In this document: in pieces, positions 1 through 15,772 of the stretch
How positions within the stretch are numbered: the stretch's first letter is position 1
Layout of the letters: the number at the start of each line of letters is the position of its first letter
Source: Bacteroidales bacterium
Lineage (GTDB): Bacteria; Bacteroidota; Bacteroidia; Bacteroidales; WCHB1-69
Assembly (NCBI GenBank): GCA_024685175.1
Contig: JAIKWD010000012.1
Span: 124,001-188,000 of the forward strand
Direction: 5' to 3'
Length of the DNA stretch: 64,000 nt
Program-made: the position numbers and the translations under genes
Notes under the pieces: generated by a model
Database searches by the model: none
What the model saw: only the letters and a program-made list of their open reading frames with translations
What the model was told of the DNA's origin: nothing

Positions 1-308
1 AAGGAAAGACCCTCGTTGACCGCCAATGCCGTGAACTCGCCCAGCGAATGACCCGCCACCATATCGGGCTTGTCCTCCGCCAAACAACGATACGCCATAT
101 ACGAATGCACGAACACCGCGGGCTGCGTGACCTTCGTCTGCTTCAAATCCTCGTCCGATCCCTCAAACATAACCTCGGACAAGGCAAAGCCCAGCAACCG
201 ATCCGCCTCCGACATAATGTCCTTGGCGTCGGAGAACTGATCGTACAGATCCTTTCCCATCCCCGGAAACTGGGCTCCCTGACCTGGAAAGACAAATGCT
301 TTTTTCAT
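1..308 (-). CDS. fabD: Malonyl-CoA:ACP transacylase, N-terminal part (cut by window edge)
   Basis: FabD moves the malonyl group from CoA to acyl carrier protein in the cytoplasm to supply fatty-acid elongation. The reading frame starts MKKAFVFPGQGAQFPGMG, the typical FabD N-terminus with the FPGQG oxyanion-loop motif. It reaches the nucleophile elbow GHSLGE near residue 90, where the catalytic serine lies, and runs off the window edge, so about 102 residues are seen. The ATG lies 6 bp downstream of the metK stop codon on the same strand, so the two genes are probably co-transcribed from the SAM-responsive metK promoter. No frame damage is seen. Confidence 0.93.
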   Translation of the reverse strand, partial: MKKAFVFPGQGAQFPGMGKDLYDQFSDAKDIMSEADRLLGFALSEVMFEGSDEDLKQTKVTQPAVFVHSYMAYRCLAEDKPDMVAGHSLGEFTALAVNEGLS

Positions 309-314
309 CAAAGA

Positions 315-1556
315 TTATTTCAATTTGAATGCTTCCTTGATCTTGTCCACATAGTCCAACTTCTCCCACGGGAAGAAGGTCACCATCTTACCGTTTAATT
401 TTTTGCGATAGGAGTCGCGACCGAAATGGCCGTACGTGGCGGTGGGTTGGTAGATGGGGCTCTTGAGTTGGAACCGCTTGATGATCTGATATGGCGTCAT
501 ATCGAAGATTTCGCCAATCTTGACGGCGATTTCGCCGTCACTCATCTTCTTCACCTTGGCAGTGCCGTAGGTGTTGACATAGAGGCCCACGGGCTCGGCC
601 TTGCCGATGGCGTAGGCCACTTGCACGAGCACCCGGTCGCAAAGGCCCGCAGCCACCATATTCTTGGCAATATGACGAGTGGCGTAAGCGGCGGAACGGT
701 CCACTTTGGAAGGATCCTTGCCTGAGAAGGCACCACCGCCGTGCGCACCGTGCCCACCATATGTGTCCACGATGATCTTGCGGCCGGTCAAGCCAGTGTC
801 GCCGTTCGGTCCACCAATGACAAACTTGCCCGTCGGGTTGACCAGGAATTTATTCTCGTAATCGAACTTGTCGAAGAGCCGCTGCACGTCCTTCGGACAA
901 TTATCAATGACTCTCGGAAGCAAATACTTGCGCAAGTCGCTCTTGATGGACTGCTGCATCGCCTTTTCCTCGTCGAACTCATCGTGCTGCGTGGATATGA
1001 CGATGGTGTCGATATGCTCCGGCTTGCCGTTGTCGGCATACCGCACGGTAACTTGCGACTTGGAGTCGGGACGGAGATACGTCATCACCTTGCCCTCCTT
1101 GCGGATGGCGGCGAGTTCCTGCACCAACATTTGCGCCAACTCGATGGTGAGCGGCATAAAGTTGTCCATCTCGTTGCAGGCATAACCGAACATCATACCC
1201 TGGTCGCCGGCGCCTTGATTCTCTTTCTTGGCACGCTCCACGCCTTGGTTGATGTCCGAGGACTGGTTGTGAATGGTGGAAATGATACCGCACGACTTGG
1301 CGTCGAATTGGTAATCGCTCTTGGTGTAGCCCACCTCCTCGATCACCTTCCTTACCACCTCATCGATGGGAACATACGCCTGCGATTTTACCTCTCCCGC
1401 GCATACTACCAATCCTGTAGTTGTCAATGTTTCGCAAGCCACTTTTGATTCGGGATCCTGAGCCAGGAACGAATCCAACAAAGCGTCTGAAATTTGATCA
1501 CACAGTTTGTCCGGGTGTCCTTCAGATACTGATTCAGATGTGAATAGATAGCTCAT
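315..1556 (-). CDS. metK: S-adenosylmethionine synthetase (methionine adenosyltransferase)
   Basis: Makes S-adenosylmethionine from methionine and ATP in the cytoplasm. The 413-residue product begins [17 protein letters not shown]. It holds the ATP-binding [15 protein letters not shown] segment, the GAGDQG hexapeptide that forms the flexible active-site loop region, and the glycine-rich [19 protein letters not shown] phosphate-binding segment. It is somewhat longer than the E. coli enzyme (384 residues), as seen in Bacteroidota homologues. The leader of about 110 nt upstream carries a SAM-II-type aptamer, so end-product control is expected. fabD follows 6 bp downstream. Confidence 0.97.
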
Positions 1557-1606
1557 AACTAACTGATTATAAGGTTAAACATAAAACACAGAAAACGGGA
1601 GGAAAT

Positions 1607-1660
1607 GGTCTTGTTTTAGCATTTTTTCTTGTGGTTGCAAGCAGTACAAATCTGTCCACG
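1607..1660 (-). ncRNA. SAM-II-type riboswitch in the metK leader
   Basis: Reading the minus strand, a GUGG/CCAC stem encloses a loop of about 21 nt containing GAUUUG and UUGCAA. It is followed by an A-rich stretch and then UGCUAAAACAAG. These are the conserved parts of the SAM-II class: GAUUU on the 5' side of the loop, UUGCAA on its 3' side, and the downstream GCUAAA strand that forms the pseudoknot. CUUG in the loop can pair with CAAG at the 3' end. The element lies between the metK -7 box and the metK ATG, which fits SAM feedback on SAM synthesis. About 50 nt separate it from the ATG, and no sequestered ribosome-binding site is obvious, so the expression platform is unclear. Confidence 0.83.
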
Positions 1661-1671
1661 TTTTCAGGCCG

Positions 1672-1679
1672 CAAAGATA
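1672..1679 (-). promoter_or_regulatory. -7 promoter element of metK
   Basis: TATCTTTG on the minus strand matches the Bacteroidota TAnnTTTG -7 consensus. It lies about 115 nt upstream of the metK ATG, leaving room for the SAM-II-type leader. Confidence 0.6.
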
Positions 1680-1686
1680 CAAAAAA

Positions 1687-1785
1687 TAGCAGATAGCGAT
1701 TAGCTGATAGCGGATAGCAGAAAAAAATTATTGACTAACTAATAGAAAATTATCGCTATATGCTATCTGCTGTCTGCTAACCGCT
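1687..1785. repeat. Imperfect inverted repeat built from AGCGATAGC-like words
   Basis: The left arm (1687-1720) is a run of AGCAGATAGC, GATTAGC and GGATAGCAG words. The right arm (1751-1785) is a similar run in opposite orientation, so the region could fold as a long imperfect hairpin. It fills the spacer between the divergent promoters of metK and the carboxyspermidine synthase gene. Similar word-like spacers occur elsewhere in the window. No coding potential is seen. Confidence 0.6.
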
Positions 1786-1792
1786 TTTTTTA

Positions 1793-1800
1793 TATCTTTG
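1793..1800 (+). promoter_or_regulatory. -7 promoter element of the carboxy(nor)spermidine synthase gene
   Basis: TATCTTTG matches TAnnTTTG and lies 34 nt before the ATG at 1835, directly downstream of the inverted-repeat spacer. No clear TTG -33 box is seen. Confidence 0.55.
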
Positions 1801-1834
1801 CACCTCAACTGACAAAAAATTAAATATCAATACT

Positions 1835-3043
1835 ATGGCAAAAGTTCTTATCATCGGTGCAGGCGGCGTGGGTGCCGTCGTAGCACACAAATGCGCTTCC
1901 GTACCGGAAGTCTTCACAGAAATCATGCTCGCCTCCCGCACGAAGGCCAAATGCGACAAGATAGCGGCCGAAATCGGCGGCAACCGCATCCAGACCGCAC
2001 AGGTCGATGCCGACAACGTGCCCGAGACCATCAAACTGCTCGAATCCTACAAGCCCGACCTGCTCATCAACGTGGCCCTGCCGTATCAAGACCTGCCGTT
2101 GATGGACGCCTGTCTGGCCACCAAGACCAACTATATGGACACCGCCAACTATGAGCCGCGCGACAAGGCCAAATTCGAATACAGTTGGCAGTGGGCCTAC
2201 CAAGACCGCTTCAAAGAGGCCGGCATCATGGCCCTCCTCGGCTGTGGCTTCGACCCGGGCGTAACCAGCATTTACACTGCCTACGCTGCCAAGCACTACT
2301 TCGACGAGATCCACTACCTTGACATCGTCGATTGCAACGCCGGCGACCACGGCAAGGCTTTCGCCACCAACTTCAACCCCGAAATCAACATCCGTGAGAT
2401 CACCCAGCGCGGCAAATATTGGGAGAACGGTCAGTGGATCGAAATCGACCCGATGTCCATCCATCGCGCCGTCGATTATCCCAACATCGGCGACCGCGAG
2501 TCCTATTTGCTCTATCACGAAGAGTTGGAGTCCCTCGTGCGCAGTTATCCCACCATCAAGCGCGCCCGCTTCTGGATGACCTTCGGACAGAAATACCTCA
2601 CCGTGCTCAACGTGCTGCAAGAGGTGGGCATGACCAGCATCAAGCCCATCAAATACCAAGGCATGGAGATTGTGCCGCTGCAGTTCCTCAAGGCGGTGCT
2701 GCCCGAACCCTCCTCTCTCGGCGAGGGCTACCACGGCCAGACCTCTATCGGCTGCCAAATCAAAGGCGTGAAGGACGGCAAAGAGCGCACCTACTATGTC
2801 TATAACAACTGCGACCACGCCGCGTGCTTCAAGGAAATCGGTGCTCAGGCTGTCTCCTACACCACGGGCGTGCCCGCCATGCTCTGTGCCAAGATGATCC
2901 TCACCGGCACCTGGAAGGGCGAAGGCGTGTTCAACGTCGAGCAGTTCGATCCCGATCCCTTCATGAAGGAAATCGGCGGCTACGGCCTGCCGTGGCACGA
3001 GGTCATCGACCAACCGCTACCCGTTTACAAGAATGGAGATTAA
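1835..3043 (+). CDS. Carboxy(nor)spermidine synthase (saccharopine dehydrogenase family)
   Basis: This 402-residue NAD(P)-dependent reductase is expected to condense aspartate semialdehyde with a diamine (putrescine or diaminopropane), giving carboxyspermidine or carboxynorspermidine. This is the first step of the alternative spermidine route. The N-terminus MAKVLIIGAGGVGAVVAHK is a Rossmann dinucleotide-binding motif (GxGxxG), and ASRTKAKC follows as the second beta strand with adenine-ribose contacts. The partner decarboxylase nspC is at 28352-29506, which favours the polyamine role over lysine catabolism. The gene is monocistronic or reads into the GH78 gene, which has its own -7 element. 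Confidence 0.85.
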   Translation: MAKVLIIGAGGVGAVVAHKCASVPEVFTEIMLASRTKAKCDKIAAEIGGNRIQTAQVDADNVPETIKLLESYKPDLLINVALPYQDLPLMDACLATKTNYMDTANYEPRDKAKFEYSWQWAYQDRFKEAGIMALLGCGFDPGVTSIYTAYAAKHYFDEIHYLDIVDCNAGDHGKAFATNFNPEINIREITQRGKYWENGQWIEIDPMSIHRAVDYPNIGDRESYLLYHEELESLVRSYPTIKRARFWMTFGQKYLTVLNVLQEVGMTSIKPIKYQGMEIVPLQFLKAVLPEPSSLGEGYHGQTSIGCQIKGVKDGKERTYYVYNNCDHAACFKEIGAQAVSYTTGVPAMLCAKMILTGTWKGEGVFNVEQFDPDPFMKEIGGYGLPWHEVIDQPLPVYKNGD

Positions 3044-3173
3044 GAATTCCGCTTCTATGTAGAAGAGGAGTTTTGGGGGTTCGGCACTGGAATGCCACAA
3101 ACATAATAAGCGATGGAATAACCCGTCTTTGTTGTTTCTTCGGATTAACAGCAATTTTATTACCATATTTTAA

Positions 3174-3181
3174 TAACTTTG
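3174..3181 (+). promoter_or_regulatory. -7 promoter element of the GH78 gene
   Basis: TAACTTTG matches TAnnTTTG and lies 23 nt before the ATG at 3205. It supports the start chosen for the rhamnosidase. Confidence 0.55.
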
Positions 3182-3204
3182 CCGACAGAATAACAACCAT
3201 TACG

Positions 3205-5409
3205 ATGAAACGACTTCCATTACTCCTGCTGGTATTGTTGGCATCCTTGCCCTGCGTTGCGCAGCAACACATCGGCTGTCGCGTTGGTGACAGCTGGGCG
3301 GAAGCCCCGATGCTGCGTACAACTTTTGTGCTTAAAGCCAATGATTTCAAGCACCATGATTCTCAAGCCACAGCATTTACCGCAATTGTCAACTCCTTGG
3401 GTTACCATGAGCTATATGTAAACGGTGTGAAGGTGGGTGACGAGGTGCTGCAACCGGCTGTTTCGCAACTGGACAAGCGGTCGATGGAAGTGTCGTATGA
3501 CATCACACCCCATGTACACAAAGGCCGGAATGAAATCCTGCTCTGGCTCGGCCAGGGATGGGGGCGCATTTATGGCACACCCGCAGTGGCGCGGGCAGAG
3601 GTGTACGGAACAGTGTCCGACGGGGAGTGCGGAGTGGAAAGGACATTGGCGAGCACCGACGGCAGCTGGGAGGCCTCGCCAAGCGGCTATAGCTATACCG
3701 GCAGTTGGCAACCGCTGCAGTTCGGCGGCGAACGATACGACGCGCGCATAAAACCTCATTGGCAACCTGCAACCGTGTTTCAGCTTGACAAGATGACCGT
3801 CTCATGGCAAGAATTTGAAGGCAACCATATCATCGACACCCTGACACCGGCACGCATCGAAAAGATGCCGGACAATGCCCTGCTTCTTGACTTCGGACGC
3901 ACCATAACGGGTTGGTTCCAAGCTGATTTCCAAGCACTTTCAGAGGGCAACGAAGTAACGATGGAATACTTTGATGATGTCGGATCCCACATCCAGAACC
4001 CAGAACCTTATAGCGAAAAAGACATTTATATTGCCTCCGGCAGCGGTGAGGAGCGATTCACCAACCGCTTCCATTACCATGCTTTCCGATATGTGCGCGT
4101 CACAGGAGCGAGTCTTTCGTCAGCGCGGGCCTTGCAAATCAGTGCGGTGAATCCAAAGGAGGCAGCCACTTTCGAGTGCTCCGACCCACGGTTGAACGCA
4201 ATCCACGACATGGTGAAACACACACTCTGCTGCCTGACACACAGCGGCTATATGGTCGATTGTCCGCACTTGGAGCGGATGGGCTATGGCGGCGACGGCA
4301 ACTCTTCGACCATGACTTTGCAAACGATATACGATGTGCGCGACACCTACCGCAACTGGCTGACAGCCTGGGGCGACGCCATCGACAGCACGGGGGATCT
4401 GCCATACGTGGCGCCGGCATTCCGCACGGGCGGCGGCCCCTACTGGAACGGTTTTATCATCAAAGCTCCATGGCGCACCTACCTCAATTATGGGGATAAA
4501 TATCTCATCTTCAATTATTACGGAAAGATGAAACAGTGGCTGCAGTTCATCAAGCGACATTGCGAGGACTATATCCTGCAACCCTGGCCCGACACCGAAC
4601 GGCACAGCTGGTTTTTGGGCGACTGGCTGGCTCCCCAAGGGGTGAATATCCAAGGCGAGTCAGTACAACACGTCAACAGTTGCTTTATCAGCGAATGCCT
4701 TGGCGACATGGTGCAGATGGCCCAACTGTTGGGGTACAGCAATGACGCGCAGGAGTTTACCGGATGGCGCAACGAGCTCAACGCTGCCATCCACAGCCAT
4801 TTCTATCACCCCGAGACACATACCTACGCCAATGGCACACCACTTGACCAGGCATACGCCCTGCTGATGAACATCCCGCCCGACAGTGCCACGGCCACGC
4901 TGGTCAGGGAACAGCTGCTGAAGGATTGCTATGACAAATACAACGCCCACATCGCGGTTGGGTTGGTGGGTGTGCCGATTTTCACCGAATGGTGCATCCG
5001 CGAACGGCAGACAGAACTGATGGCCGCCCTCCTGCGCCAACCCGACTACCCCGGCTATATGTATATGATCAACAACGGGGCGACCACAACGTGGGAGTCG
5101 TGGGACGGCAAACGCAGTCGTGTACACAACTGCTACAACGGCATCGGCATCTGGTTCTATCAGGCCATGGCGGGCATCCGTCCCGATGATAACGCCCCCG
5201 GCTATCGCCATTTCTTCATCGACCCACAGTCTGTCAGCGACGTGGATTGGGTAAGGGCCACAAAGTCCACACCTTACGGGGAAATCCAAGTGGAAATCAA
5301 TGGTGACGAGATAAGCATAACCGTCCCGTCGGGCACCACGGCCACACTATTCCCAGGAACCTCCCGCGAAAGGGAACTTCCCGCCGGGCATTGGAAAGTG
5401 AGGAGGTAA
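3205..5409 (+). CDS. Secreted alpha-L-rhamnosidase-like glycoside hydrolase (GH78)
   Basis: This 734-residue exported enzyme probably releases terminal rhamnose from plant or bacterial glycans. A Sec signal peptide ends near residue 20 (LLASLPCVAQ). A jelly-roll N-terminal domain (around residues 65-120, with LYVNGVKVG) follows, and then the (alpha/alpha)6 barrel. DCPHLERMGYGGD near residues 352-364 corresponds to the family motif that carries the acid Glu and a conserved Asp. GATTTWESWDG near 624-634 carries the second conserved Glu. An upstream extension of the frame to 2824 lies inside the preceding gene. It was dropped because ATG 3205 begins the signal peptide and follows a -7 element. 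Substrate is inferred from family only. Confidence 0.87.
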   Translation: MKRLPLLLLVLLASLPCVAQQHIGCRVGDSWAEAPMLRTTFVLKANDFKHHDSQATAFTAIVNSLGYHELYVNGVKVGDEVLQPAVSQLDKRSMEVSYDITPHVHKGRNEILLWLGQGWGRIYGTPAVARAEVYGTVSDGECGVERTLASTDGSWEASPSGYSYTGSWQPLQFGGERYDARIKPHWQPATVFQLDKMTVSWQEFEGNHIIDTLTPARIEKMPDNALLLDFGRTITGWFQADFQALSEGNEVTMEYFDDVGSHIQNPEPYSEKDIYIASGSGEERFTNRFHYHAFRYVRVTGASLSSARALQISAVNPKEAATFECSDPRLNAIHDMVKHTLCCLTHSGYMVDCPHLERMGYGGDGNSSTMTLQTIYDVRDTYRNWLTAWGDAIDSTGDLPYVAPAFRTGGGPYWNGFIIKAPWRTYLNYGDKYLIFNYYGKMKQWLQFIKRHCEDYILQPWPDTERHSWFLGDWLAPQGVNIQGESVQHVNSCFISECLGDMVQMAQLLGYSNDAQEFTGWRNELNAAIHSHFYHPETHTYANGTPLDQAYALLMNIPPDSATATLVREQLLKDCYDKYNAHIAVGLVGVPIFTEWCIRERQTELMAALLRQPDYPGYMYMINNGATTTWESWDGKRSRVHNCYNGIGIWFYQAMAGIRPDDNAPGYRHFFIDPQSVSDVDWVRATKSTPYGEIQVEINGDEISITVPSGTTATLFPGTSRERELPAGHWKVRR

Positions 5410-5476
5410 TCTGCGTAAATCTGCAAAATCTGTGGGAAATAACGTAGAAAATTCAAAGTTCAAAATTCAAAGTAAG
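5410..5476. repeat. Short word-like direct repeats after the GH78 gene
   Basis: Repeated CTGCGTAAAT/CTGCAAAATC and AAAATTCAAAGTT words occupy the start of the spacer. They resemble the low-complexity spacers seen elsewhere in the window. No gene is apparent. Confidence 0.4.
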
Positions 5477-5638
5477 ATGTCTTCTGCAGATTTCTATCAT
5501 ACTTTGACAACGTAATCGTGTGAGTGAGCGCAGCATTTTTGGATGCACGACAAATTTCCGTATGACAACGCATCTATCGCTTTTTCAAATAATTACACAT
5601 TTCTTTTTTCTTTGTCACATCTTAGAAATTAAAAAACA

Positions 5639-5668
5639 AAAGGGTCGGCGCAGATGCGTCGGCCCTTT
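5639..5668 (-). terminator. Intrinsic terminator of the triple-repeat T9SS protein gene
   Basis: A 14-bp stem (AAAGGG...CGCA against its complement, two G-U wobbles) with a minimal loop lies 33 nt past the stop codon at 5701. On the minus strand it is followed by a T-rich tract. A T-rich run is also present on the plus side, so it could act in both directions. Confidence 0.8.
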
Positions 5669-5700
5669 CTTTTTCAAGAAAACTAAAATCGAAATATCGA

Positions 5701-7371
5701 TTATTTCTTCACCAATTTGGCAGTTCTGTTGCCGCTCTGCACGAAATAGAAACCGGCGGGAAGTTCGTTTACATCCAGGTTGGTCACCTCTTCGGTGGCA
5801 ATGGTGCGCATCATCAGGGCACCTTGCAGGTTGTAGATGGAAACCACTTCGTTGACAGCGGTCTGGATGCTGACATTGTTCGTACAAGGATTGGGAGCGA
5901 TGGACAAAATCGTATTGTCGTGGTTAATGACAGCCGTGGGTGCCGGAACGGGCGCGATAGGCGTGTCCCAAGTGGCGTTGTAGTTTATATCCAAATCGGC
6001 ACAGGAGTAACCACCGAACTTGATATAGTCGTTGTCATCGAAATATTGGACATCGACTGCATTGGCGTAGCCTCCATTGATATTGTACATAATAAAGTCG
6101 GGGATTTCTATGACAAAGCTTTCTTGGCCCATCACAAATTGAATACTCGACAAAAATCCCTCTCCTTCAAAACTGAAACGCGGGTCGGCGGCGGCGATGT
6201 CGCTAAGCATCGTGGAAACGAGCACAGAATCGGCGCTGAAACGATAACCCCAAGCCAAGGCGGTGTCGGGATCGCACCAATTGACGATGAAGATCGCCTC
6301 ATTGTCACCGGTGCCAACCCAATAGATGATTTGGTCTTCATCGATCGTGGCGTCCTCGGGAACAACAGGAGCGCCTGGAACGGACACAGGCGTGACGGGA
6401 GTGACCCAAGACATGCCCATCGGGTACAAAACTCCGCCCCAATCCATATACATATAGCCAATACCCACGGCAATGTCTCCCCATTTGCTGAAGTCACCAT
6501 CATGGAGTTGGGCGTTGATGCCGGCAGATTGATTACCATTAAGATTGTGAGACCAGAAACTGCCTTGGGTCAACCTAAGGGAATCACCATTTTCCGTAAT
6601 GAAAGTAAGTTCGTCGAGCATGGCAGCGCCTGAATAGGAGAAGCGAGGATCTTCGTTAGCGATCAGAGCCAAGGCAGCATCGTTAGTGATGTATTCATCG
6701 CTGAAACGCACACCCCAAGCAAGACAAGTGTCTGGATCGGCCCAGTTGATAGCCATAACCAACTCTTTATCGCCAGTACCAACCCAGTAGAGAATCTCAT
6801 TCTTGTCAATGGAAGCATCTTCGGGTCCCTCATCAACAGCGGGATAAATAGTTTGCGGCCAGACATAAGTATAATCCCAATAGCCACCCCAATCTGAAAT
6901 CCAAGTACTATCGGCAATAGTGGCAACATAAGTGTCACCCCATTTGATGAAATCGCCATCAACCACCATCTTCTCATCGGCGCCAAGCATGGAGACTTCG
7001 TGGTTGACTTGCAATTGAAAATAGATGTATGAGCCAGGAGCAGGAGTGGCTGTAGAGAGTTGGTGCGTCGTCAAAAGATCGTTATATACGATGTCGTTCA
7101 CCATACCACCTGCTGCATTAAGCGTGATTCGCCAGTCGTAAGCGGCAATAGCTTCCAGAACATCCATGACAGAAACGCTGTCTTCGCTGAATTGATATCC
7201 CCATGCCAAAGCGGTGTCGGCCCAAACCACAGAGATGACCACTTCGTTTTCGCCCATGATATCGCCAGCCCAAAATTCGACATCGTCGGCGTCGAAGCCA
7301 GCATCTACGACCTGAGCGTTGACAAAAGCAAAACTGCAAAGAATTGCTGCAAATAATAAAACTTTTCTCAT
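5701..7371 (-). CDS. B12-riboswitch-controlled T9SS cargo protein with three tandem WxGTGxNE/LAWG domains
   Basis: This 556-residue protein has a Sec signal peptide (residues 1-19, cut after VNA). Three copies of a domain of about 130-150 residues follow, at about 30-180, 185-325 and 340-470. Each copy has the pattern W(V/A)GTGxNE, VxWxDPDTxLAWGxRFS and a DPRFSxxG-like end. The first copy is the most diverged. Residues 488-556 form a type A T9SS sorting domain (SIAPNP ... IYNLQG ... LPAGFYFVQS ... KLVKK), so the protein should reach the cell surface. A complete cobalamin riboswitch precedes it, which implies a role in corrinoid capture or in replacing a B12-dependent function. No catalytic motif is recognised. 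A B12-binding function is inferred only from its regulation. Confidence 0.88.
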   Translation of the reverse strand: MRKVLLFAAILCSFAFVNAQVVDAGFDADDVEFWAGDIMGENEVVISVVWADTALAWGYQFSEDSVSVMDVLEAIAAYDWRITLNAAGGMVNDIVYNDLLTTHQLSTATPAPGSYIYFQLQVNHEVSMLGADEKMVVDGDFIKWGDTYVATIADSTWISDWGGYWDYTYVWPQTIYPAVDEGPEDASIDKNEILYWVGTGDKELVMAINWADPDTCLAWGVRFSDEYITNDAALALIANEDPRFSYSGAAMLDELTFITENGDSLRLTQGSFWSHNLNGNQSAGINAQLHDGDFSKWGDIAVGIGYMYMDWGGVLYPMGMSWVTPVTPVSVPGAPVVPEDATIDEDQIIYWVGTGDNEAIFIVNWCDPDTALAWGYRFSADSVLVSTMLSDIAAADPRFSFEGEGFLSSIQFVMGQESFVIEIPDFIMYNINGGYANAVDVQYFDDNDYIKFGGYSCADLDINYNATWDTPIAPVPAPTAVINHDNTILSIAPNPCTNNVSIQTAVNEVVSIYNLQGALMMRTIATEEVTNLDVNELPAGFYFVQSGNRTAKLVKK

Positions 7372-7496
7372 ACTTTATAAATTTAAAGGTTAAACATTAA
7401 ATTCAACACAAAGCTTGGGAAAAGGACATCAGATGAGGCTGAAAAAAACCTGTTTCGTGCAAGCCTATCTCCCGAAGCTGTCACTTTTTATTGATT

Positions 7497-7664
7497 ATCC
7501 GGCAGGTTTTCTGACTTGTTCCTTTCCTCGGGCGCCTTCCCATCGAGCTAGACGACAGTGGCTTTGTGCCTTTGGCTTTTAAGAACTTACAGCAGCGGGT
7601 ACTGTGCAGGACTCTCACCTGCTTCCCTCTCAGGATTTCCATGAAATCCCTCACCGTAAAATCG
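7497..7664 (-). ncRNA. Cobalamin (adenosylcobalamin-class) riboswitch
   Basis: The minus strand between the -7 box and the downstream leader shows the conserved aptamer parts in order. These are the GGTGAGAGTCCTGCAC segment with ACAGTACCCGCTGCTGTAA, the B12 box AGCCACTG (7556-7563), GGGAAGGCGCCCGAG, and the terminal AAGTCAGAAAACCTGCC (7501-7517). The element lies about 130 nt upstream of the T9SS triple-repeat gene. It should repress that gene when cobalamin is plentiful. No clear rho-independent terminator follows, so control may be translational. Confidence 0.95.
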
Positions 7665-7668
7665 GTGG

Positions 7669-7676
7669 CAAAAATA
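7669..7676 (-). promoter_or_regulatory. -7 promoter element upstream of the cobalamin riboswitch
   Basis: TATTTTTG on the minus strand matches the -7 consensus and places transcription start just before the aptamer. Confidence 0.65.
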
Positions 7677-7734
7677 CAAAAAAAGATGATTAGTAGATAA
7701 TCTTTTCCTGCGAAGTCTCGTTCACTAAAAAATG

Positions 7735-7742
7735 TAATTTTG
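7735..7742 (+). promoter_or_regulatory. -7 promoter element of the beta-helix T9SS gene
   Basis: TAATTTTG matches TAnnTTTG and lies 20 nt before the ATG at 7763. It is divergent from the riboswitch promoter. Confidence 0.6.
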
Positions 7743-7762
7743 CCACAAAAAACTTCTTCCCT

Positions 7763-9214
7763 ATGAAAAGAACATTCTTATTATTTTCTATTCTGATTCT
7801 AAGCTTTTTTGCTTTTGCCCAAATCAACCCAAAAGGCAATGGAGTGACTTACACTTTGTCGGAAATGGCCATTTCCGATCCCGCTTGGGTGCAAGAAACC
7901 TCAAGCGGAAATTTTCTTATCCTGCAGAATATCTATCTACTTGAAGACGACACTCTCCTCCTTAAGTCCACTGACCAATCCATAACCATATCCGATAATC
8001 TCACGCTCACATTTTACGGTACCGTTGTTTGCGAACCACGAACAGAGCTTCTGCCCGTCATTGGCGACACAACGGGGGCAAACCCCTATCGCGTCGTCGT
8101 GGAGAATGCGGAACCGTTCACCTTGTCGCAACTGCATTTCCAACACGGCTACCAAGTGCTTCTTTCCGGCGCCGACATTTTTATTGAGCAATGTGAGTTC
8201 AGCGGCTTTGCCAACGGCGCTGTAAACTATATGAACTGTAATCCTGTTATTCGGAATTGTTATTTTCACGACAACCAAAAGGCGGCCATCACGTCGGCGG
8301 TCAACACGAATGGATCCCCACACATAATTGGCAACACATTCTACAACAATGACTTGAGTAATGCCAACATCCCTCAAATCAACCTCGGACCGGGAGCCGA
8401 GAGCATCATTTTAATCGATAGCAATGTGATTGAAGGCGTGGCTCAGAACATGTCGGGCGGTTTTGCCATTATGAACATGGGTAGTTCCAACACCATTTTG
8501 AGTTTCACGAACAACATTGTCAAGAACAACCGTTACGGCTACACGCAAAACGGCACGCACATTAATGCATATATTTCTGATAACCATTTCATAAACAACA
8601 ACTTGGAAACAAACCCGAACAATGGTGGCAGCGGCATCAGCATCTATGGCAGCGACACGACCTGTGCAGCCACGATCCGCCACAACGAGATAAGCGGCAA
8701 TCTCTGGGGGGTCACCGCCATCTACAACCATAGCATCGATATGGGCACGGCGGACGACCCTGGGGAAAACATCCTCTCCAACAACGGAAACGGCGGCGTT
8801 GAGTATGAACTCTACAACAACGCGTTCAGCGACATGAGTGCGGTGGGCAACTGCTGGGGACACGACGACCCCGACAGCGTAGAGGCTGTAATCTACCACA
8901 AAACCGATGACCCATCCTTGGGCTTGGTCACCTACATGCCCCTACTGCCCTGCGGAACATCTGTGGAGACCTACGAAGCCAATGACGTGAAAGTCTATCC
9001 CAACCCCGCAGCGAACGGAACGTTCCACATTAGCCAAGAAGGCAATGCTTTGATGCAAATCCAAGTGTTTTCTATCGAAGGACAACTCTTGTTTACCCGC
9101 CAAACGTCAGAATCACTGACTACGGTAAATGCGTCCCAGTGGCCCTCAGGTTTGTATTTAGTACAAATCCTACAAAATGGTTATGCAAAAACGATGAAGA
9201 TATTGATTCCGTAG
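7763..9214 (+). CDS. Secreted right-handed beta-helix protein with T9SS sorting domain
   Basis: This 483-residue exported surface protein starts with a signal peptide (MKRTFLLFSILILSFFAFAQ). The body has repeated NxxxNN-, ISDN- and IIGNTFYNN-type short turns with regular spacing (residues about 120-340), typical of parallel beta-helix (PbH1/NosD-like) proteins that bind or cleave polysaccharides. The last 80 residues form a type A T9SS domain (VKVYPNPAANGTFHIS ... GLYLVQILQNGYAKTMKILIP). No catalytic residues can be assigned, so enzyme versus adhesin remains open. Confidence 0.82.
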   Translation: MKRTFLLFSILILSFFAFAQINPKGNGVTYTLSEMAISDPAWVQETSSGNFLILQNIYLLEDDTLLLKSTDQSITISDNLTLTFYGTVVCEPRTELLPVIGDTTGANPYRVVVENAEPFTLSQLHFQHGYQVLLSGADIFIEQCEFSGFANGAVNYMNCNPVIRNCYFHDNQKAAITSAVNTNGSPHIIGNTFYNNDLSNANIPQINLGPGAESIILIDSNVIEGVAQNMSGGFAIMNMGSSNTILSFTNNIVKNNRYGYTQNGTHINAYISDNHFINNNLETNPNNGGSGISIYGSDTTCAATIRHNEISGNLWGVTAIYNHSIDMGTADDPGENILSNNGNGGVEYELYNNAFSDMSAVGNCWGHDDPDSVEAVIYHKTDDPSLGLVTYMPLLPCGTSVETYEANDVKVYPNPAANGTFHISQEGNALMQIQVFSIEGQLLFTRQTSESLTTVNASQWPSGLYLVQILQNGYAKTMKILIP

Positions 9215-9338
9215 AGATTGGGAACGTGAAACTTTGTTTTTTGCCCGCGCCGTGGACTAAAAGCAAAACAAAGAACACCTTCGATCAACGATAATCGGTA
9301 ATCCCTTACGTCTCAAATCTTAAATCTATAATCTTATA

Positions 9339-10778
9339 TTATTGTGCGGTATGATTTAGCACGACGTTGATGGCGGTATACTTATCCCGTAAATGTTTGG
9401 CCATTTGTTCGGCGAAATAGACGGAACGGTGTTGTCCGCCCGTACAACCGAAGCTGACCATCAAGTGGTCGAAATTGCGTTCAATGTAATTGTCCACCGC
9501 CTGATCAAGGATGGCGTAGGCATGTGCTTTGAACTCGGCCACGGCGGGATACTTCTCCAAATATTCAATCACGCAGTCGTCCTTGCCCGTATTGTGAGCG
9601 AAGCGTTTCTCCCGACCGGGGTTGGGCAGGGCGCGACAGTCGAACACAAAGCCGCCACCGTTGGGTGACGGGTCTTGCGGAATGGATTTCTTGTACGAGA
9701 AGCTCTGAACGAGCACGGTGAGTGTCTGGCCAGGTTGGTAAGGCTTCACAAAGTCGGAGGCGGCGATGGCACGCAAAGCGCCGAAGAGCTCAGGCAGTTG
9801 CACGGGCGCCGACCAGTGGTCCACTATCCCCATTATGTTGCGCACCGCGTAGGGCACACTCTGCAAAAAGTGGCTCTTGTGTTCGAAGTAACCTCTATAA
9901 CCGTATGCCCCCATCGCCTGGAGAATACGGATGAGAACAAATCCCTGGAAATGGCATTCAAAGTCGGCACGATCCACGAACACGTGTTGCGACAAGGCAT
10001 CCAAATAAATGTTAAAAAGATGATCGCGCAGCTCTGGAGACAGATCGGCCTTGGCATCGTATAGCAAAGAGGCAATATCATACTGAGGAGCTCCTTTCCG
10101 GCCACCTTGATAGTCGATGAAGTAAACATTGCCGTCCTTCACCATGATATTGCGGGATTGGAAGTCGCGATAGAGAAAATAGTTACTGTCCACCGCAAGC
10201 AAATAATCCATCAATTTATTGAAGTCATCCTCCAATCGCTGTTCGTTGAAGGGAACATTAACCAATTTTAAGAAATAGTATTTGAAATAGTTGAGATCCC
10301 ACAACATGGACTGCCGGTCGAAGGCGTGACGCGGATAGGCAATGGAGAAATCCATGCCTTGCTTACCAGCCAGCTGCAGGTCGGGCAGTGCACGGACCAC
10401 CTTCTCATAATAACCCACCACTTCAGCGGTCGGACGTCCATCTGATTGACGGTTCTTGGTCAAGAAATCGTACAGAGTGGTCCTTCCAAGATCTTCCTGA
10501 AGATAGTATTGTTTGTCTGGAGCCACGACGAAAAGTTCCGGCACATTAAGGTTTAAATTGCGAAAAAAACGCGTCAGATAGAAAAAAGCATCGTTTTCAG
10601 CCACGTCGTCATTATACGCACCCATGATCGTGCGCTGGTCGGCAAGGGTGAGGCGAAAATAAAGGCGGTGTGATCCAGACTGGGCCAGTTGTTCACAATC
10701 TGTCACCTCTTGATGGGTGAATTCGTGCGCCATTTGCACGAGCGTCTGGGCAATTGGTTGGGTTAGGTTATGGTTCAT
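9339..10778 (-). CDS. Fused aminoglycoside-phosphotransferase-fold sugar kinase and RapZ C-terminal domain
   Basis: The protein has 479 residues. Residues about 1-330 have an APH/AmgK-like kinase fold. LYRDFQSRNIMV (residues 202-213) is the catalytic loop with HRD replaced by YRD, and FIDYQGG (220-226) is the metal-binding DFG/DxQ equivalent. Residues about 354-479 match the RapZ C-terminal domain, with the signature VSFGCTGGQHRSV (441-453). In enterobacteria RapZ-C senses glucosamine-6-phosphate. AmgK-like kinases phosphorylate MurNAc or GlcNAc for wall recycling, so an amino-sugar role is plausible (inference). A start at 10874 would run through the tRNA gene. ATG 10778 directly follows a -7 box and was chosen. 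Confidence 0.85.
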   Translation of the reverse strand: MNHNLTQPIAQTLVQMAHEFTHQEVTDCEQLAQSGSHRLYFRLTLADQRTIMGAYNDDVAENDAFFYLTRFFRNLNLNVPELFVVAPDKQYYLQEDLGRTTLYDFLTKNRQSDGRPTAEVVGYYEKVVRALPDLQLAGKQGMDFSIAYPRHAFDRQSMLWDLNYFKYYFLKLVNVPFNEQRLEDDFNKLMDYLLAVDSNYFLYRDFQSRNIMVKDGNVYFIDYQGGRKGAPQYDIASLLYDAKADLSPELRDHLFNIYLDALSQHVFVDRADFECHFQGFVLIRILQAMGAYGYRGYFEHKSHFLQSVPYAVRNIMGIVDHWSAPVQLPELFGALRAIAASDFVKPYQPGQTLTVLVQSFSYKKSIPQDPSPNGGGFVFDCRALPNPGREKRFAHNTGKDDCVIEYLEKYPAVAEFKAHAYAILDQAVDNYIERNFDHLMVSFGCTGGQHRSVYFAEQMAKHLRDKYTAINVVLNHTAQ

Positions 10779-10784
10779 AGGCCA

Positions 10785-10792
10785 CAAAAATA
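10785..10792 (-). promoter_or_regulatory. -7 promoter element of the kinase-RapZ gene
   Basis: TATTTTTG on the minus strand ends only 6 nt before the ATG at 10778. A transcript from it would have almost no 5' leader. Confidence 0.5.
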
Positions 10793-10811
10793 CATTTTTT
10801 CCCTGAACAAA

Positions 10812-10839
10812 AAAGGCCGAAGCATAAGCTCCGGCCTTT
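10812..10839 (-). terminator. Terminator of the tRNA-Lys gene
   Basis: A 12-bp stem (AAAGGCCGGAGC with its partner, one wobble) closes a TTAT loop. It is followed on the minus strand by a T-rich tract. The stem begins at the last base of the tRNA CCA end. Confidence 0.8.
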
Positions 10840-10914
10840 GGTGTCTCAGCTGGGATTCGAACCCAGGACCCCATCCTTAAAAGGGATGTGCTCTACCTGC
10901 TGAGCTACTGGGAC
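10839..10914 (-). tRNA. tRNA-Lys (UUU anticodon), CCA encoded
   Basis: The minus strand reads GTCCCAG (acceptor), TAGCTCAGCAGGTAGAGCA (D arm), CATCC-CTTTTAA-GGATG (anticodon arm with UUU at 34-36), GGGTCCTGGGTTCGAATCCCAG (variable loop and T arm), CTGAGAC, A and the encoded CCA. The cloverleaf is complete. The fourth acceptor pair is a C-A mismatch, which is unusual but does not disrupt the fold. The gene has its own -7 box upstream and a hairpin terminator directly downstream. Confidence 0.95.
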
Positions 10915-11220
10915 ATCCTTCTCTTTGTTAGAGGCTGCAAAAGTACATTTTTTTTCCAATCATATACCCACTCGTCTATGATTTTTATTAAAATATTGAT
11001 TATAAGTAATATAAGAAAAGTATCGAAATTATATAAATCTCATGGATTTTTCTGTATATTCGCTTATAAAGTATTGATAATAAAATTGTTAAAAACACAT
11101 CAGAAAAAATGACATCAATAATGCCAAAAAAAACCTTATTGAGTCGAAAAGGGACTTTAATCCGTCATTTTGTCAAAAAAGGAATGCCAAAAAACCATTG
11201 TTAAACAAAGCGTTGAAATC
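10915..11220. other. AT-rich spacer between tRNA-Lys and the small gene at 11221
   Basis: Apart from the tRNA promoter, this stretch of about 300 nt is AT-rich with poly-A and poly-T runs. Short frames through it have no plausible start, composition or motif, and one of them overlaps the tRNA. No RNA structure or repeat stands out. Confidence 0.5.
10938..10945 (-). promoter_or_regulatory. -7 promoter element of tRNA-Lys
   Basis: TACTTTTG on the minus strand, 24 nt upstream of the mature 5' end of the tRNA, matches TAnnTTTG. Confidence 0.6.
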
Positions 11221-11445
11221 ATGAAAAAACTGATTTTGAGTCCGAAGAAGGACACCGTAATCTTGTGTTTGCCCTCAGATTGGGTTGGCAAAACAATAAT
11301 ATGTCTATTGAAGGAACCCTTCGAAGCGGAGATTGAGATGGTGGGACAAGCTAGTGAGGACGCCATATTTTACCGTGCCGACAAGTATCGCAAGATAGCG
11401 AAACGTCAGCCCAGGAAACAGCGATTGCGAAAGAGGTTGCTTTAG
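11221..11445 (+). CDS. Small basic protein of unknown function
   Basis: The 74-residue frame has a beta-strand-like N-terminal half ([28 protein letters not shown]) and a strongly basic C-terminal tail rich in Lys and Arg. The pattern of hydrophobic strands around LPSDWVGK looks like a real short Bacteroidota protein rather than noise. The frame can be extended to a TTG at 11170, but ATG 11221 is the more natural start. Its last 4 bp overlap the 3' end of folE on the other strand. No promoter is recognised and no function is claimed. Confidence 0.5.
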
Positions 11446-12053
11446 TGGAGGTCTGCGCCGATAAGGTGCATAAACTCTTGGCGAGTGTTTTCGTTCTTGA
11501 GGAATGCGCCCGTGAACTCGGAGGTGGTGGTCACGGAATTCTGTTTCTGGATGCCGCGCATAGACATACAGAGGTGTTGGGCTTCGATGACGACGGCCAC
11601 ACCGAGCGGGTTGAGCACTTCCTGCAGGCAGTCCTTGATCTGCGTGGTGAGTCGTTCTTGCAGTTGCAGGCGGCGGGCGAAGCATTCCACCACACGGGGT
11701 ATCTTGCTCAGTCCCACAATTGTGCCGTTGGGGATGTAGCCAATGTGCGCCTTGCCGAAGAAAGGCAACAGATGATGTTCGCAGAGGGAGTATATCTCGA
11801 TGTCCTTCACCACCACAATTTGTTTGTAGTCCTCGTGGAAAAGGGCGGATTTCAGGATGGCCTTAGGGTCGAGGCGGTAGCCATGCGTGAGGAAATCGAG
11901 CGACTTGGCGGCACGCATAGGAGTCTTGAGCAGACCTTCACGGTCCGGGTTCTCGCCCACATTCTTCAAAACATCGCGATAATTGTTCGACAGGTTCGTA
12001 AGTTCTTGTTCGGATAGTTTGGGTATTTGATTGATGGAATCGGTGATTTTCAT
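11442..12053 (-). CDS. folE: GTP cyclohydrolase I
   Basis: This 203-residue enzyme converts GTP to 7,8-dihydroneopterin triphosphate, the first step of folate and pterin synthesis. The zinc and active-site motif [20 protein letters not shown] is present, with Cys and paired His. [40 protein letters not shown] (second zinc Cys) and the final SEFTGAFL segment follow. Length matches the bacterial family. It starts 3 nt after the stop of the MBL hydrolase gene and is probably its operon partner. Confidence 0.97.
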
Positions 12054-12056
12054 CTC

Positions 12057-12692
12057 TTATTGTAAAAATGGATTGTTTAATTTTTCGTGTATGACTGTAG
12101 TATTATCACCATGGCCGGGAATGATGAGGGTATCGTCGGGCAGGGTGAAGATCTTCTCCCGGATCATCTGTAGGAGAAGCAGAGCACTCCCTGTAGGCAA
12201 ATCGCTCCGGCCCACGCTCTCCTCAAAAATGAGGTCTCCAACAATCACGAATTTCTCTTTTTCGTTGTAGAGGGAGATGCTGCCGTCGCAGTGGCCGGGT
12301 GTGTACAGCACGCTTAGGCACTGGTTGCCGAAACGCACTTCGTCACCCTCCTTGAGATAGCGGGTCGGGGCAGGCATATCATCCACCGACAACCCAAATG
12401 CCATAGCATAGGCATACGACTTGTTGTAGATGGGCATTCCCGCTTCGTGACACCATACGGGGGCCTTGAATTCGTTGGCGCACCAGTTGTTGCCGGCAAT
12501 ATGGTCGATATGCGGATGGGTATTGACGAGGGCTTTGACCGTAAGGTGGTTGTCGTTGACATAATCCCGTAGTTGTTCATCCTCGTAACTCCGGCAGTTG
12601 CCCGGGTCCACGATGATGGCCTCCCCCGTCTCGTCGTGCAACACCAATGTGTTTACCACAATGGGATTGAAATGAAATGTCCGTATGGTCAT
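12057..12692 (-). CDS. MBL-fold hydrolase (glyoxalase II-like)
   Basis: This 211-residue metallo-beta-lactamase-fold protein resembles the YcbL/glyoxalase II type that hydrolyses thioesters. It has the metal-binding motif NTHPHIDHIAGN (HxHxDH), the second histidine in LYTPGHCDGS, the metal-bridging Asp in VIVGDLIFEESVGRSDLP, and the last His in IIPGHGDNT. ATG 12692 begins MTIRTFHFNP, the usual family N-terminus. An in-frame ATG at 12767 would add 25 unconserved, charged residues, which is possible but less likely. The true substrate is unknown. folE follows after 3 nt. Confidence 0.82.
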   Translation of the reverse strand: MTIRTFHFNPIVVNTLVLHDETGEAIIVDPGNCRSYEDEQLRDYVNDNHLTVKALVNTHPHIDHIAGNNWCANEFKAPVWCHEAGMPIYNKSYAYAMAFGLSVDDMPAPTRYLKEGDEVRFGNQCLSVLYTPGHCDGSISLYNEKEKFVIVGDLIFEESVGRSDLPTGSALLLLQMIREKIFTLPDDTLIIPGHGDNTTVIHEKLNNPFLQ

Positions 12693-12796
12693 ATTCTCCA
12701 ATGCTCTTTTATTTGTCGACAATATATCTTTCAATTCAACTTTCTTCTTCCCTTCCAATTGGTTCATTGGATTATTGGATCATGGGTTAATTAATC

Positions 12797-14116
12797 TTAG
12801 AACGGTTTTGTCGCAGAGGGGTCATTGACATATAACTCCTTCACTTTTTTTCCATTGGAGAAGATTACACTGTAATAAAGATCGCCGTTGGGTTTCCAAC
12901 ACGACCATTTGCCATCGCGAAGGCGGCCTTTGAAACTACCCTCGAAATGTTTGGTTCCGTTGTCGTAGTACTCGGTAAACGGGCCGTCTTGGACATTGTC
13001 GACGAAGTTCTGTTCGCGAATTTTCTTTTCGAAGACGTTGTAGAAAGACCATTTCCCTTGTTTCATATCCTTCACATATTTGCCTTCGTTGAGGATTTTG
13101 CCGTTTTGGGCGAACTCTTTCCAGAGTCCGTTTCTTTGGTTGGCTTTGTAGTTGCCTTGGCGGGCCATCTTGCCGGTTTCTTCCCAGTAGTAGGTGTATA
13201 GGCCGTTCAATTCGCCATTCTTGTAATGCAAACAGTATTTTTGGGCGCCGTTTTCGTACCAGCCGTTCCATTCGCCGTCCATTTTGGCGTTCTTGAAATA
13301 ACCCTTATCCTTGATTTTGCCGTCGGGGAAGTAGTCAATCCACTCGCCGTTTTCTTGGTCGTTGATAAAGGAGCCTTCGCGTTGCACTTGTCTGTTTTCG
13401 TACCAGGCTTTCCATTCGCCTTCGCGCTTGCCGGCCACGTATTTGCCTTTCTTCCAAAGAGTTCCATCGTCATAAAAGTAGGTCCATACGCCGTCTTGTT
13501 TGCCTTTGTCAAAGTTGCCGGTGCTACCCAGGGTGCCTTTGTCGTTGTAGTATTTCCAGATGCCTTGTTGCAAGTCGTTGACGGTGGTGCCTTCCATTGC
13601 TTTCTGGCCGTTCTTCGACCACCAGCAGGCAAAGCCGTTGAGGGCGCCGTTGGCGTAGTCGCCCTCGAAATACTTGTTGCCGTTGTCGAAATACTCCACA
13701 ACGTGTCCGTGCACGCTGTCGCCTTCGTATGAGACGTCCTTGAAGAGTTGTCCGTTGGGATGATAGAACACCCATCGGCCAGAGCGCTTGCCGTCTACAA
13801 ACTGGCCTTCCGTTTCCGTGCGTCCCGATTGGTACCAGCTTTTGAAGGGTCCGGTCTGGGCATTATACTCTTGGGCAAGTTTGCCGTTGTCGTACCAGAC
13901 TTTCCATACGCCGACTTTCTCGCCGTCCTGGAAGTCGCCCTCCGTCCATTTCACGCCGTTGTTGTGGTAATAGATCCAATGGCCCTGTTCAAGGCCTTTT
14001 TGTTGTACGCCAATGGACATCAATTTGTTGTTGTTCCAATAGGTTTTCATCGTATCCTGACCGTAGGAAAGGGACAGGATAAGCAGGCAGAAAAGCAAAC
14101 TTGTTACGTTCTTCAT
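12797..14116 (-). CDS. Exported YwqK/MORN-like repeat protein
   Basis: This 439-residue protein has a signal peptide (LLFCLLILSLSYGQ) followed by about a dozen and a half degenerate repeats of about 23 residues. Their pattern is W-x-x-Y-(Y/H)-x-(D/N)-G-(K/T)-x-x-x-(E/K)-G-x-(Y/F)-x-x-G-(K/L), the YwqK/MORN_2 pattern. Such repeats form extended beta-hairpin rods. The family is often labelled an antitoxin after B. subtilis YwqK, but nothing nearby looks like a toxin, so that label is not used. ATG 14116 begins the signal peptide. A start at 14140 would overlap the -7 box. Confidence 0.82.
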   Translation of the reverse strand: MKNVTSLLFCLLILSLSYGQDTMKTYWNNNKLMSIGVQQKGLEQGHWIYYHNNGVKWTEGDFQDGEKVGVWKVWYDNGKLAQEYNAQTGPFKSWYQSGRTETEGQFVDGKRSGRWVFYHPNGQLFKDVSYEGDSVHGHVVEYFDNGNKYFEGDYANGALNGFACWWSKNGQKAMEGTTVNDLQQGIWKYYNDKGTLGSTGNFDKGKQDGVWTYFYDDGTLWKKGKYVAGKREGEWKAWYENRQVQREGSFINDQENGEWIDYFPDGKIKDKGYFKNAKMDGEWNGWYENGAQKYCLHYKNGELNGLYTYYWEETGKMARQGNYKANQRNGLWKEFAQNGKILNEGKYVKDMKQGKWSFYNVFEKKIREQNFVDNVQDGPFTEYYDNGTKHFEGSFKGRLRDGKWSCWKPNGDLYYSVIFSNGKKVKELYVNDPSATKPF

Positions 14117-14137
14117 AAAATCAAAAATTAAGGGAGG

Positions 14138-14145
14138 CAAAAGTA
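14138..14145 (-). promoter_or_regulatory. -7 promoter element of the YwqK-repeat gene
   Basis: TACTTTTG on the minus strand, 21 nt before the ATG at 14116. It lies only 11 bp from the divergent -7 box at 14157. Confidence 0.6.
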
Positions 14146-14156
14146 CAAAAAAATAC

Positions 14157-14164
14157 TATCTTTG
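14157..14164 (+). promoter_or_regulatory. -7 promoter element of the PepSY-like gene run
   Basis: TATCTTTG, 27 nt before the ATG at 14192. It supports that start over the longer frame beginning at 14162. Confidence 0.6.
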
Positions 14165-14191
14165 TCCCTCATTTTTAACAAAAGGAATTAT

Positions 14192-15757: not shown

Positions 15758-15772
15758 TTCCATTTTCTTTCC

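Follow-up and report, generated by a model that had tools for sequence, protein, structure and literature searches.

The stretch of DNA analysed here (the window: 64,000 nucleotides of contig JAIKWD010000012.1 from a Bacteroidales bacterium, assembly GCA_024685175.1) carries on its minus strand a cobalamin riboswitch followed by the gene of a repeat protein with a type IX secretion system (T9SS) sorting domain. The features of the locus, in the direction of transcription, are:

7669..7676, minus strand: TATTTTTG, fits the Bacteroidetes -7 box TAnnTTTG (by eye)
7484..7673, minus strand: cobalamin riboswitch aptamer, RF00174 (cmscan)
5701..7371, minus strand: riboswitch-controlled gene, 556 aa plus stop, ATG start at 7371 (5704-7371 without the stop; ORF list)
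7312..7371, minus strand: signal-peptide-like N-terminus, residues 1-20 (by eye from the translation)
6838..7305, minus strand: repeat 1, the most diverged, residues about 23-178 (profile hit)
6373..6819, minus strand: repeat 2, residues about 185-333 (profile hit)
5935..6354, minus strand: repeat 3, residues about 340-479; modelled as 5920-6366 (profile hit; AlphaFold2)
5704..5901, minus strand: T9SS type A C-terminal sorting domain, residues about 491-556 (TIGR04183 and PF18962)
5639..5668, minus strand: terminator-like hairpin, probably usable on both strands (terminator scan and by eye)

The aptamer matches RF00174 over its full length (model positions 1-189 of 189, not truncated) and scores 101.5 bits, where the gathering threshold is 31.5 (E 3e-24); 112 nt (113 by script count) separate its end from the ATG. 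An earlier note on this DNA had described a complete aptamer upstream of a single gene, and the three segments that it named are all present in the alignment. By eye, the match at 7669-7676 to what we take to be the Bacteroidetes -7 promoter box overlaps the 5' edge of the aptamer. Folding the leader downstream of the aptamer in silico and comparing it by eye yielded no firm terminator or sequestering model. At the other end of the gene, the terminator-like hairpin starts 32 nt past the stop codon. It was reported by the scan for the plus strand, with 13 pairs, and on the minus strand it is followed, by eye, by TTTTGTTTTTT. Because this hairpin with T-runs lies 3' of the stop, the gene is probably transcribed alone. 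The scan returned 2 terminator-like sites, against a shuffled mean of 2.0.

The three repeats are related in sequence, repeat 2 being 38% and repeat 1 34% identical to repeat 3, and the sorting domain is recognized by both TIGR04183 (9.8e-11, 41.5 bits against a cut-off of 23) and PF18962 (1.5e-9), so that the product is as the earlier note had read it. No typical lipobox was seen by eye at the N-terminus of the 556-aa protein. The T9SS translocon protein SprA is present in the genome (SprA_N, 540 bits, in G000) and, with a sorting domain above its cut-off, the protein is by sequence criteria a predicted type A cargo of this system. The same note had reported no BtuB, cobalamin synthesis or isozyme gene beside the riboswitch gene, and we likewise recognized nothing of the btu, cob/cbi or isozyme kind in window positions 1-16000, where most ORFs were read by eye and five proteins were scanned against Pfam.

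Two further observations concern this part of the window. A divergent protein with a T9SS sorting domain (7763-9214, plus strand) starts about 90 nt beyond the aptamer and has its upstream region in common with the riboswitch gene. A SAM-II riboswitch (1606-1665, minus strand, 56.7 bits) lies directly 5' of an S-adenosylmethionine synthetase gene (315-1556, minus strand).

Sequence and fold of the repeat

Only one Pfam family, PF14478 (DUF4430), matched the repeats at E<=0.01. It did so in 52 of 97 repeats (best 6.8e-10), the remaining 45 having no Pfam match at this level; the 97 are the three window repeats plus 94 of 106 non-redundant ones (from 196), with 12, mostly the weakest, left out. 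On the whole window protein DUF4430 stays below its cut-off (E 0.00035, 21.4 bits against 23.8) with the match in repeat 1, and repeat 3 alone has no Pfam match. The cut-off is passed in a two-repeat homologue (L050, 47.6 bits) and in a paralogue in the source genome (24.5 bits). The DUF4430 matches seen span only the C-terminal half of the model (about positions 39-68 of 72). DUF4430 has been reported from the C-terminal end of transcobalamins (PMC4350170). Several positions are invariant in all 97 rows of the alignment (Trp351, Gly353, Gly355, Ala373, Trp374, Gly375, Asp396 and Arg398 in window protein numbering) and many others are aromatic.

An AlphaFold2 model of repeat 3 made with the 97 sequences (mf8ad01083953) reached a pLDDT of 95.2 and a pTM of 0.89; it has a helix at 50-60 followed by strands at 64-67 and 74-79, as read without a view of the sheet topology; a beta-hairpin inserted right behind the helix is a mark of the transcobalamin-like clade of SLBB domains discussed below. 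Foldseek compared this model with 350,542 PDB chains and returned 237 matches at E<=10, none of them at E 0.001. Transcobalamin, intrinsic factor and the Ruminococcus gnavus structure 3u7z take up the first 14 places between them (probability 0.80-0.99, E 0.068-0.37). Rank 15 has a probability of 0.12; a further transcobalamin follows at rank 18 (0.54), and ThiS, a beta-grasp protein, at rank 23 (0.44). TM-scores normalized by target length are 0.62-0.64 for the isolated human beta domain (5no0, 5np4) and for 3u7z, but normalized by query length only 0.39-0.48 for the first 14 matches. Searches of PDB sequences with the repeat profiles matched no transcobalamin chain. The model thus suggests a beta-grasp core most like the C-terminal domain of transcobalamin, although the Foldseek E-values are weak (best 0.068). 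Since two kinds of comparison, by DUF4430 and by fold, agree, the same half of the B12 carriers is indicated.

The human carriers transcobalamin and intrinsic factor (PDB 5no0, 5np4, 2pmv) share the fold of the repeat, but they are animal proteins in which a single beta domain stands beside an alpha/alpha toroid. In transcobalamin a large part of the B12 site comes from this toroid, and we found no such domain. The R. gnavus protein RUMGNA_00854 (3u7z, rank 5 in the fold search) is likewise bacterial; it comes from a Gram-positive organism, and its title says only 'putative metal-binding protein'.

The likeness to BtuG or BtuH that the earlier note had in mind did not materialize, the fold being that of the transcobalamin/intrinsic factor beta domain. 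A place among these lipoproteins was rejected because Pfam gave no propeller or jelly-roll match at E<=1, neither BtuG nor BtuH is among the best 50 of the 237 fold matches, and no typical lipobox was seen by eye.

The incomplete site leaves room for a protein of the B12 regulon that does not itself bind corrinoids. It could be a structural or docking part that holds BtuG or the partner domain FENA described below, or serve vesicle release like BtuL, its transcobalamin-like domain being a protein- or glycan-binding scaffold. The absence of the toroid half would fit such a role, and there is a precedent in BtuL of Bacteroides thetaiotaomicron, which is reported to be strongly induced when B12 is lacking but not to bind cobalamin (PMC12751083). 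Other SLBB domains, too, are described with different ligands (PMC1796856). Nevertheless, B12 carriers precede any other beta-grasp protein among the fold matches and the family lies mostly behind B12 riboswitches, and we regard a non-binding role as improbable, if the most serious of the rival explanations.

Relatives, their riboswitches and their gene neighbours

Homologous loci were fetched by protein similarity, ignoring riboswitches, and the best 80 of 177 relatives gave 79 loci. Their titles are those of Bacteroidales, Bacteroidia or Bacteroidetes records plus one Candidatus Limimorpha; 33 mention the gut of a ruminant or a horse, and many of the rest have RUG labels, which we take to mean rumen genomes. 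The proteins have one to five tandem copies of the repeat (in 3, 49, 15, 6 and 6 loci respectively). With a covariance model, a single cobalamin aptamer was detected in 77 of the 79 loci, in every case upstream of the homologue and on its strand. This model was built from 14 aptamers of the order, and four of the 77 (L070, L073, L140, L143) are on training contigs, as judged by length and place. In the two loci without an aptamer (L119 and L128) the contig starts only about 2.0 and 2.2 kb away from the match, and an ORF with a marker domain extends to that end. A sequence pattern for the aptamer was found in 75 of the 79 loci; among the four missed, Rfam recovers L088 and L121 and finds none in L119 and L128. 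The median distance from aptamer to ATG is 111 nt, with 69 of 77 below 300 nt, five at 300-1500 nt and three beyond. These loci are not independent: closely related species are included, and the order-wide draw of genomes that follows contains the contigs of at least five of them.

In that draw a homologue occurs in 27 of 295 genomes and is absent from 268, so the family is confined to a minority of the order. A phylum-wide draw gave a domain match at E<=1e-6 in only 8 of 395 genomes, and the domain is therefore not general in the phylum. Any cobalamin riboswitch at all is present in 25 of the 27 genomes with a homologue. In 24 of them a homologue lies no more than 6.5 kb downstream of an aptamer (in 17, no more than 1.5 kb), whereas such stretches cover about 0.3% of the genome-strand (assuming a mean genome size of 3.1 Mb). 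Counted by matching stretches, 32 of 36 have an aptamer within 6.5 kb upstream. The exceptions are the paralogue of the source genome and stretches in G277, G181 and G077; the G277 homologue is part of a BtuG-BtuB-homologue-BtuG cluster (L061), and the first aptamer upstream of it is at a distance of 23 kb, while no aptamer match was obtained in the genomes G181 and G077. A lack of enrichment near riboswitches or cobalamin genes would have refuted the earlier note; with homologues downstream of a riboswitch at 77 of 79 loci and in 24 of 27 genomes of the order, its proposal survives this test.

The neighbours of the homologues were counted in the 79 loci with profiles built in this analysis. 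Most frequent is a partner domain that we name FENA for its FEN motif, present in 73 loci, in 22 of them as a fusion with the repeats. BtuG-like genes occur in 39 loci and BtuB-like genes of the same strand in 5. Only four loci (L066, L067, L070 and L138) have no FENA, BtuG-like or same-strand BtuB-like gene; L067 and L070, which belong to the nearest relatives, are solitary as the window gene is, while L066 is cut by the contig end. The order riboswitch, repeat protein, FENA, BtuB-like, BtuG-like is seen in L054, L058, L059, L060, L063, L064 and L097, and this cluster occurs in other families of the order and in L097. In L054, L055, L060, L063 and L064 the repeat follows a propeller-like region within one protein. 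The BtuG profile also matches this propeller-repeat fusion protein in L055 and L064, and Pfam names nothing there in L064. For the L064 cluster, the receptor matches the solved BtuB chain 8bmx_C (2.1e-85), its best NCBIfam model being TIGR01779 (99.2 bits against a cut-off of 599.7), and the lipoprotein matches YncE-family BtuG-type chains (8p97_B, 2.6e-62) and DUF5074. A cobalamin riboswitch before a TonB transporter is also described for Flavobacterium. Taken as predictions from sequence, control of the window gene by the cobalamin aptamer and its membership in a B12-uptake gene set are well supported.

These neighbours also bear on the idea of a surface protein for another ligand, such as a host or diet glycoprotein, haem or another tetrapyrrole, with the riboswitch acting as a cue of starvation or location. 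T9SS repeat proteins are indeed often adhesins or glycan binders, as is generally known, but the tie to the cobalamin aptamer and to BtuB- and BtuG-like genes runs through the whole family, and we give this explanation little credence.

FENA is a strongly conserved domain (for example L073 3295-3981). Apart from the sorting domain, it has no Pfam match over the cut-off (L064 and L046), and a search of PDB sequences gave nothing beyond matches to the sorting domain and some weak ones (E 0.07-0.36). Its AlphaFold2 model (pLDDT 90.5) has a jelly-roll-like fold. Foldseek returned 504 matches for this model, none at E<=0.001: a phage tail protein came first and many CBM32 and F5/8 type C jelly rolls were among the others. 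Second was B. thetaiotaomicron BtuG1 with its fused BtuH domain (8blw_B, probability 1.00, E 2.3e-3), the aligned part not being shown. A likeness of FENA to BtuH is therefore no more than a lead.

B12 economy of the source genome and a proposed role

The assembly (2.1 Mb, completeness 98.03) contains two cobalamin riboswitches detected with RF00174, that of the window and one 5' of a gene that looks by eye like nrdD (L003 2822-3001 and 3091-5196; relatives in L166, L168 and L169). The earlier note had allowed that the protein replaces a B12-dependent function at low B12. Cobalamin riboswitches do control such isozymes, as is generally known, and the second aptamer of this very genome precedes the nrdD-like gene. 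However, neither Pfam nor NCBIfam finds an enzyme domain in the window protein; it is a secreted repeat protein, and its relatives keep company with uptake genes. We dropped this reading as scarcely credible.

The second riboswitch is of interest in itself: an nrdD-like gene (anaerobic ribonucleotide reductase, by eye) lies behind a cobalamin riboswitch in four of four genomes of the genus examined (G000, G001, G120 and G218). Within the genus, a cobalamin riboswitch in G218 (L167 7904-8082, minus strand) also precedes a gene (6479-7798, minus strand) that by eye resembles an acyl-CoA hydrolase/CoA-transferase. In G001 another (L170 7603-7771, minus strand) lies in front of the gene for a protein of 1070 aa (4291-7503, minus strand), which ends in a T9SS sorting domain and has no match to the repeat profile.

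The source genome has four matches to PF02310 (B12-binding), three of which are by eye MetH-, MutB- and lysine-aminomutase-like, one FecCD permease and a single tetrapyrrole methylase gene. Synthesis of the corrin ring needs several tetrapyrrole methylases. With B12-dependent enzymes, as read by eye, and only one such methylase, the organism is probably a cobamide-dependent non-producer that scavenges cobamides, as far as gene content can tell. A BtuG-like gene on contig C3 (L161 8793-9866, plus strand) matches B. thetaiotaomicron BtuG1 (8blw_B, 7.4e-72), and a TonB receptor on contig C7 (L187 8321-10411, plus strand) matches BtuB1 (8blw_A, 8.9e-152). These two genes are on different contigs; like the PF02310 genes and the permease, they have no cobalamin riboswitch and are not near the window gene. 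As annotated here, the B12 receptor pair is thus scattered and unswitched in this genome, and the switch sits on the repeat protein. The paralogue mentioned above (L015 8300-9814, minus strand) combines one repeat with a FENA domain and a T9SS sorting domain; in the 19-kb stretch scanned around it we detected no cobalamin aptamer.

On the basis of fold and gene context, corrinoid binding appears likely, and we propose, with a probability of roughly 75%, that the window protein is a T9SS-delivered, multivalent corrinoid-capture protein; binding itself is inferred and there are no binding data. The direction of the switch is likewise inferred: with plentiful intracellular cobalamin the aptamer would close and expression would fall, and with scarce cobalamin the protein would be made. 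Its signal peptide would then take it through the inner membrane and the T9SS through the outer one; surface display (or release) is a further inference. There, its three tandem beta-grasp domains would bind corrinoids and raise the capture of scarce cobamides. The corrinoid might finally be handed, directly or through the BtuG1-like lipoprotein, to the BtuB1-like TonB receptor, both coded elsewhere in the genome; this hand-over, too, is inferred. Doubts about corrinoid binding come mainly from the lack of a toroid, the weak E-values of the Foldseek matches and the precedent of BtuL.

The closest known counterpart is the transcobalamin-like clade of SLBB domains. Burroughs et al. (2007; PMC1796856), who defined this clade, name low-GC Gram-positives and planctomycetes as its hosts, with euryarchaea less frequent, and suggest that organisms without B12 synthesis scavenge B12 by means of it. 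As here, the beta domain of transcobalamin was the best fold match, the proteins were secreted or on the surface, and a beta-propeller fusion was found, there in a Clostridium. The clade differs in its Gram-positive anchors, toroid fusions and CbiO/CbiQ operons, whereas the present proteins are from Bacteroidales and have a T9SS sorting domain, one to five tandem copies, a cobalamin riboswitch and BtuB/BtuG-type clusters. BtuG, BtuH and BtuJ of Bacteroides share the riboswitch-controlled capture of B12 at the surface that is inferred for the window protein. They are described as lipoproteins with propeller or jelly-roll folds (DUF4465 in BtuH), unlike the window protein with its sorting domain and predicted beta-grasp fold (PMC6143338; PMC8941943; PMC10404256; PMC12751083). 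We found no report of T9SS-sorted or Bacteroidales members of the transcobalamin-like family in the open-access literature searched.

It is tempting to go further and suggest an unrecognized T9SS-borne form of B12 capture in Bacteroidales, many of them from ruminant guts. Here one to five transcobalamin-beta-like domains would be complemented by FENA, in cis or in trans, in place of the toroid, and the corrinoid would be held between two domains as in intrinsic factor. This extension is tentative, and we rate it somewhat short of an even chance.

If the proposed role of the window protein is correct, a fold of animal B12 carriers would be placed on the surface of a Gram-negative gut bacterium. 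The type IX secretion system would join the display routes for B12 capture, those that we found described in Bacteroides being lipoproteins. The DUF4430-like repeats of the order would gain a likely ligand, and the 79 loci would offer a testable family for the competition for B12 in the ruminant gut. Should the two-domain reading with FENA also be true, animal carriers and gut bacteria would compete for the same vitamin with the same half-site.
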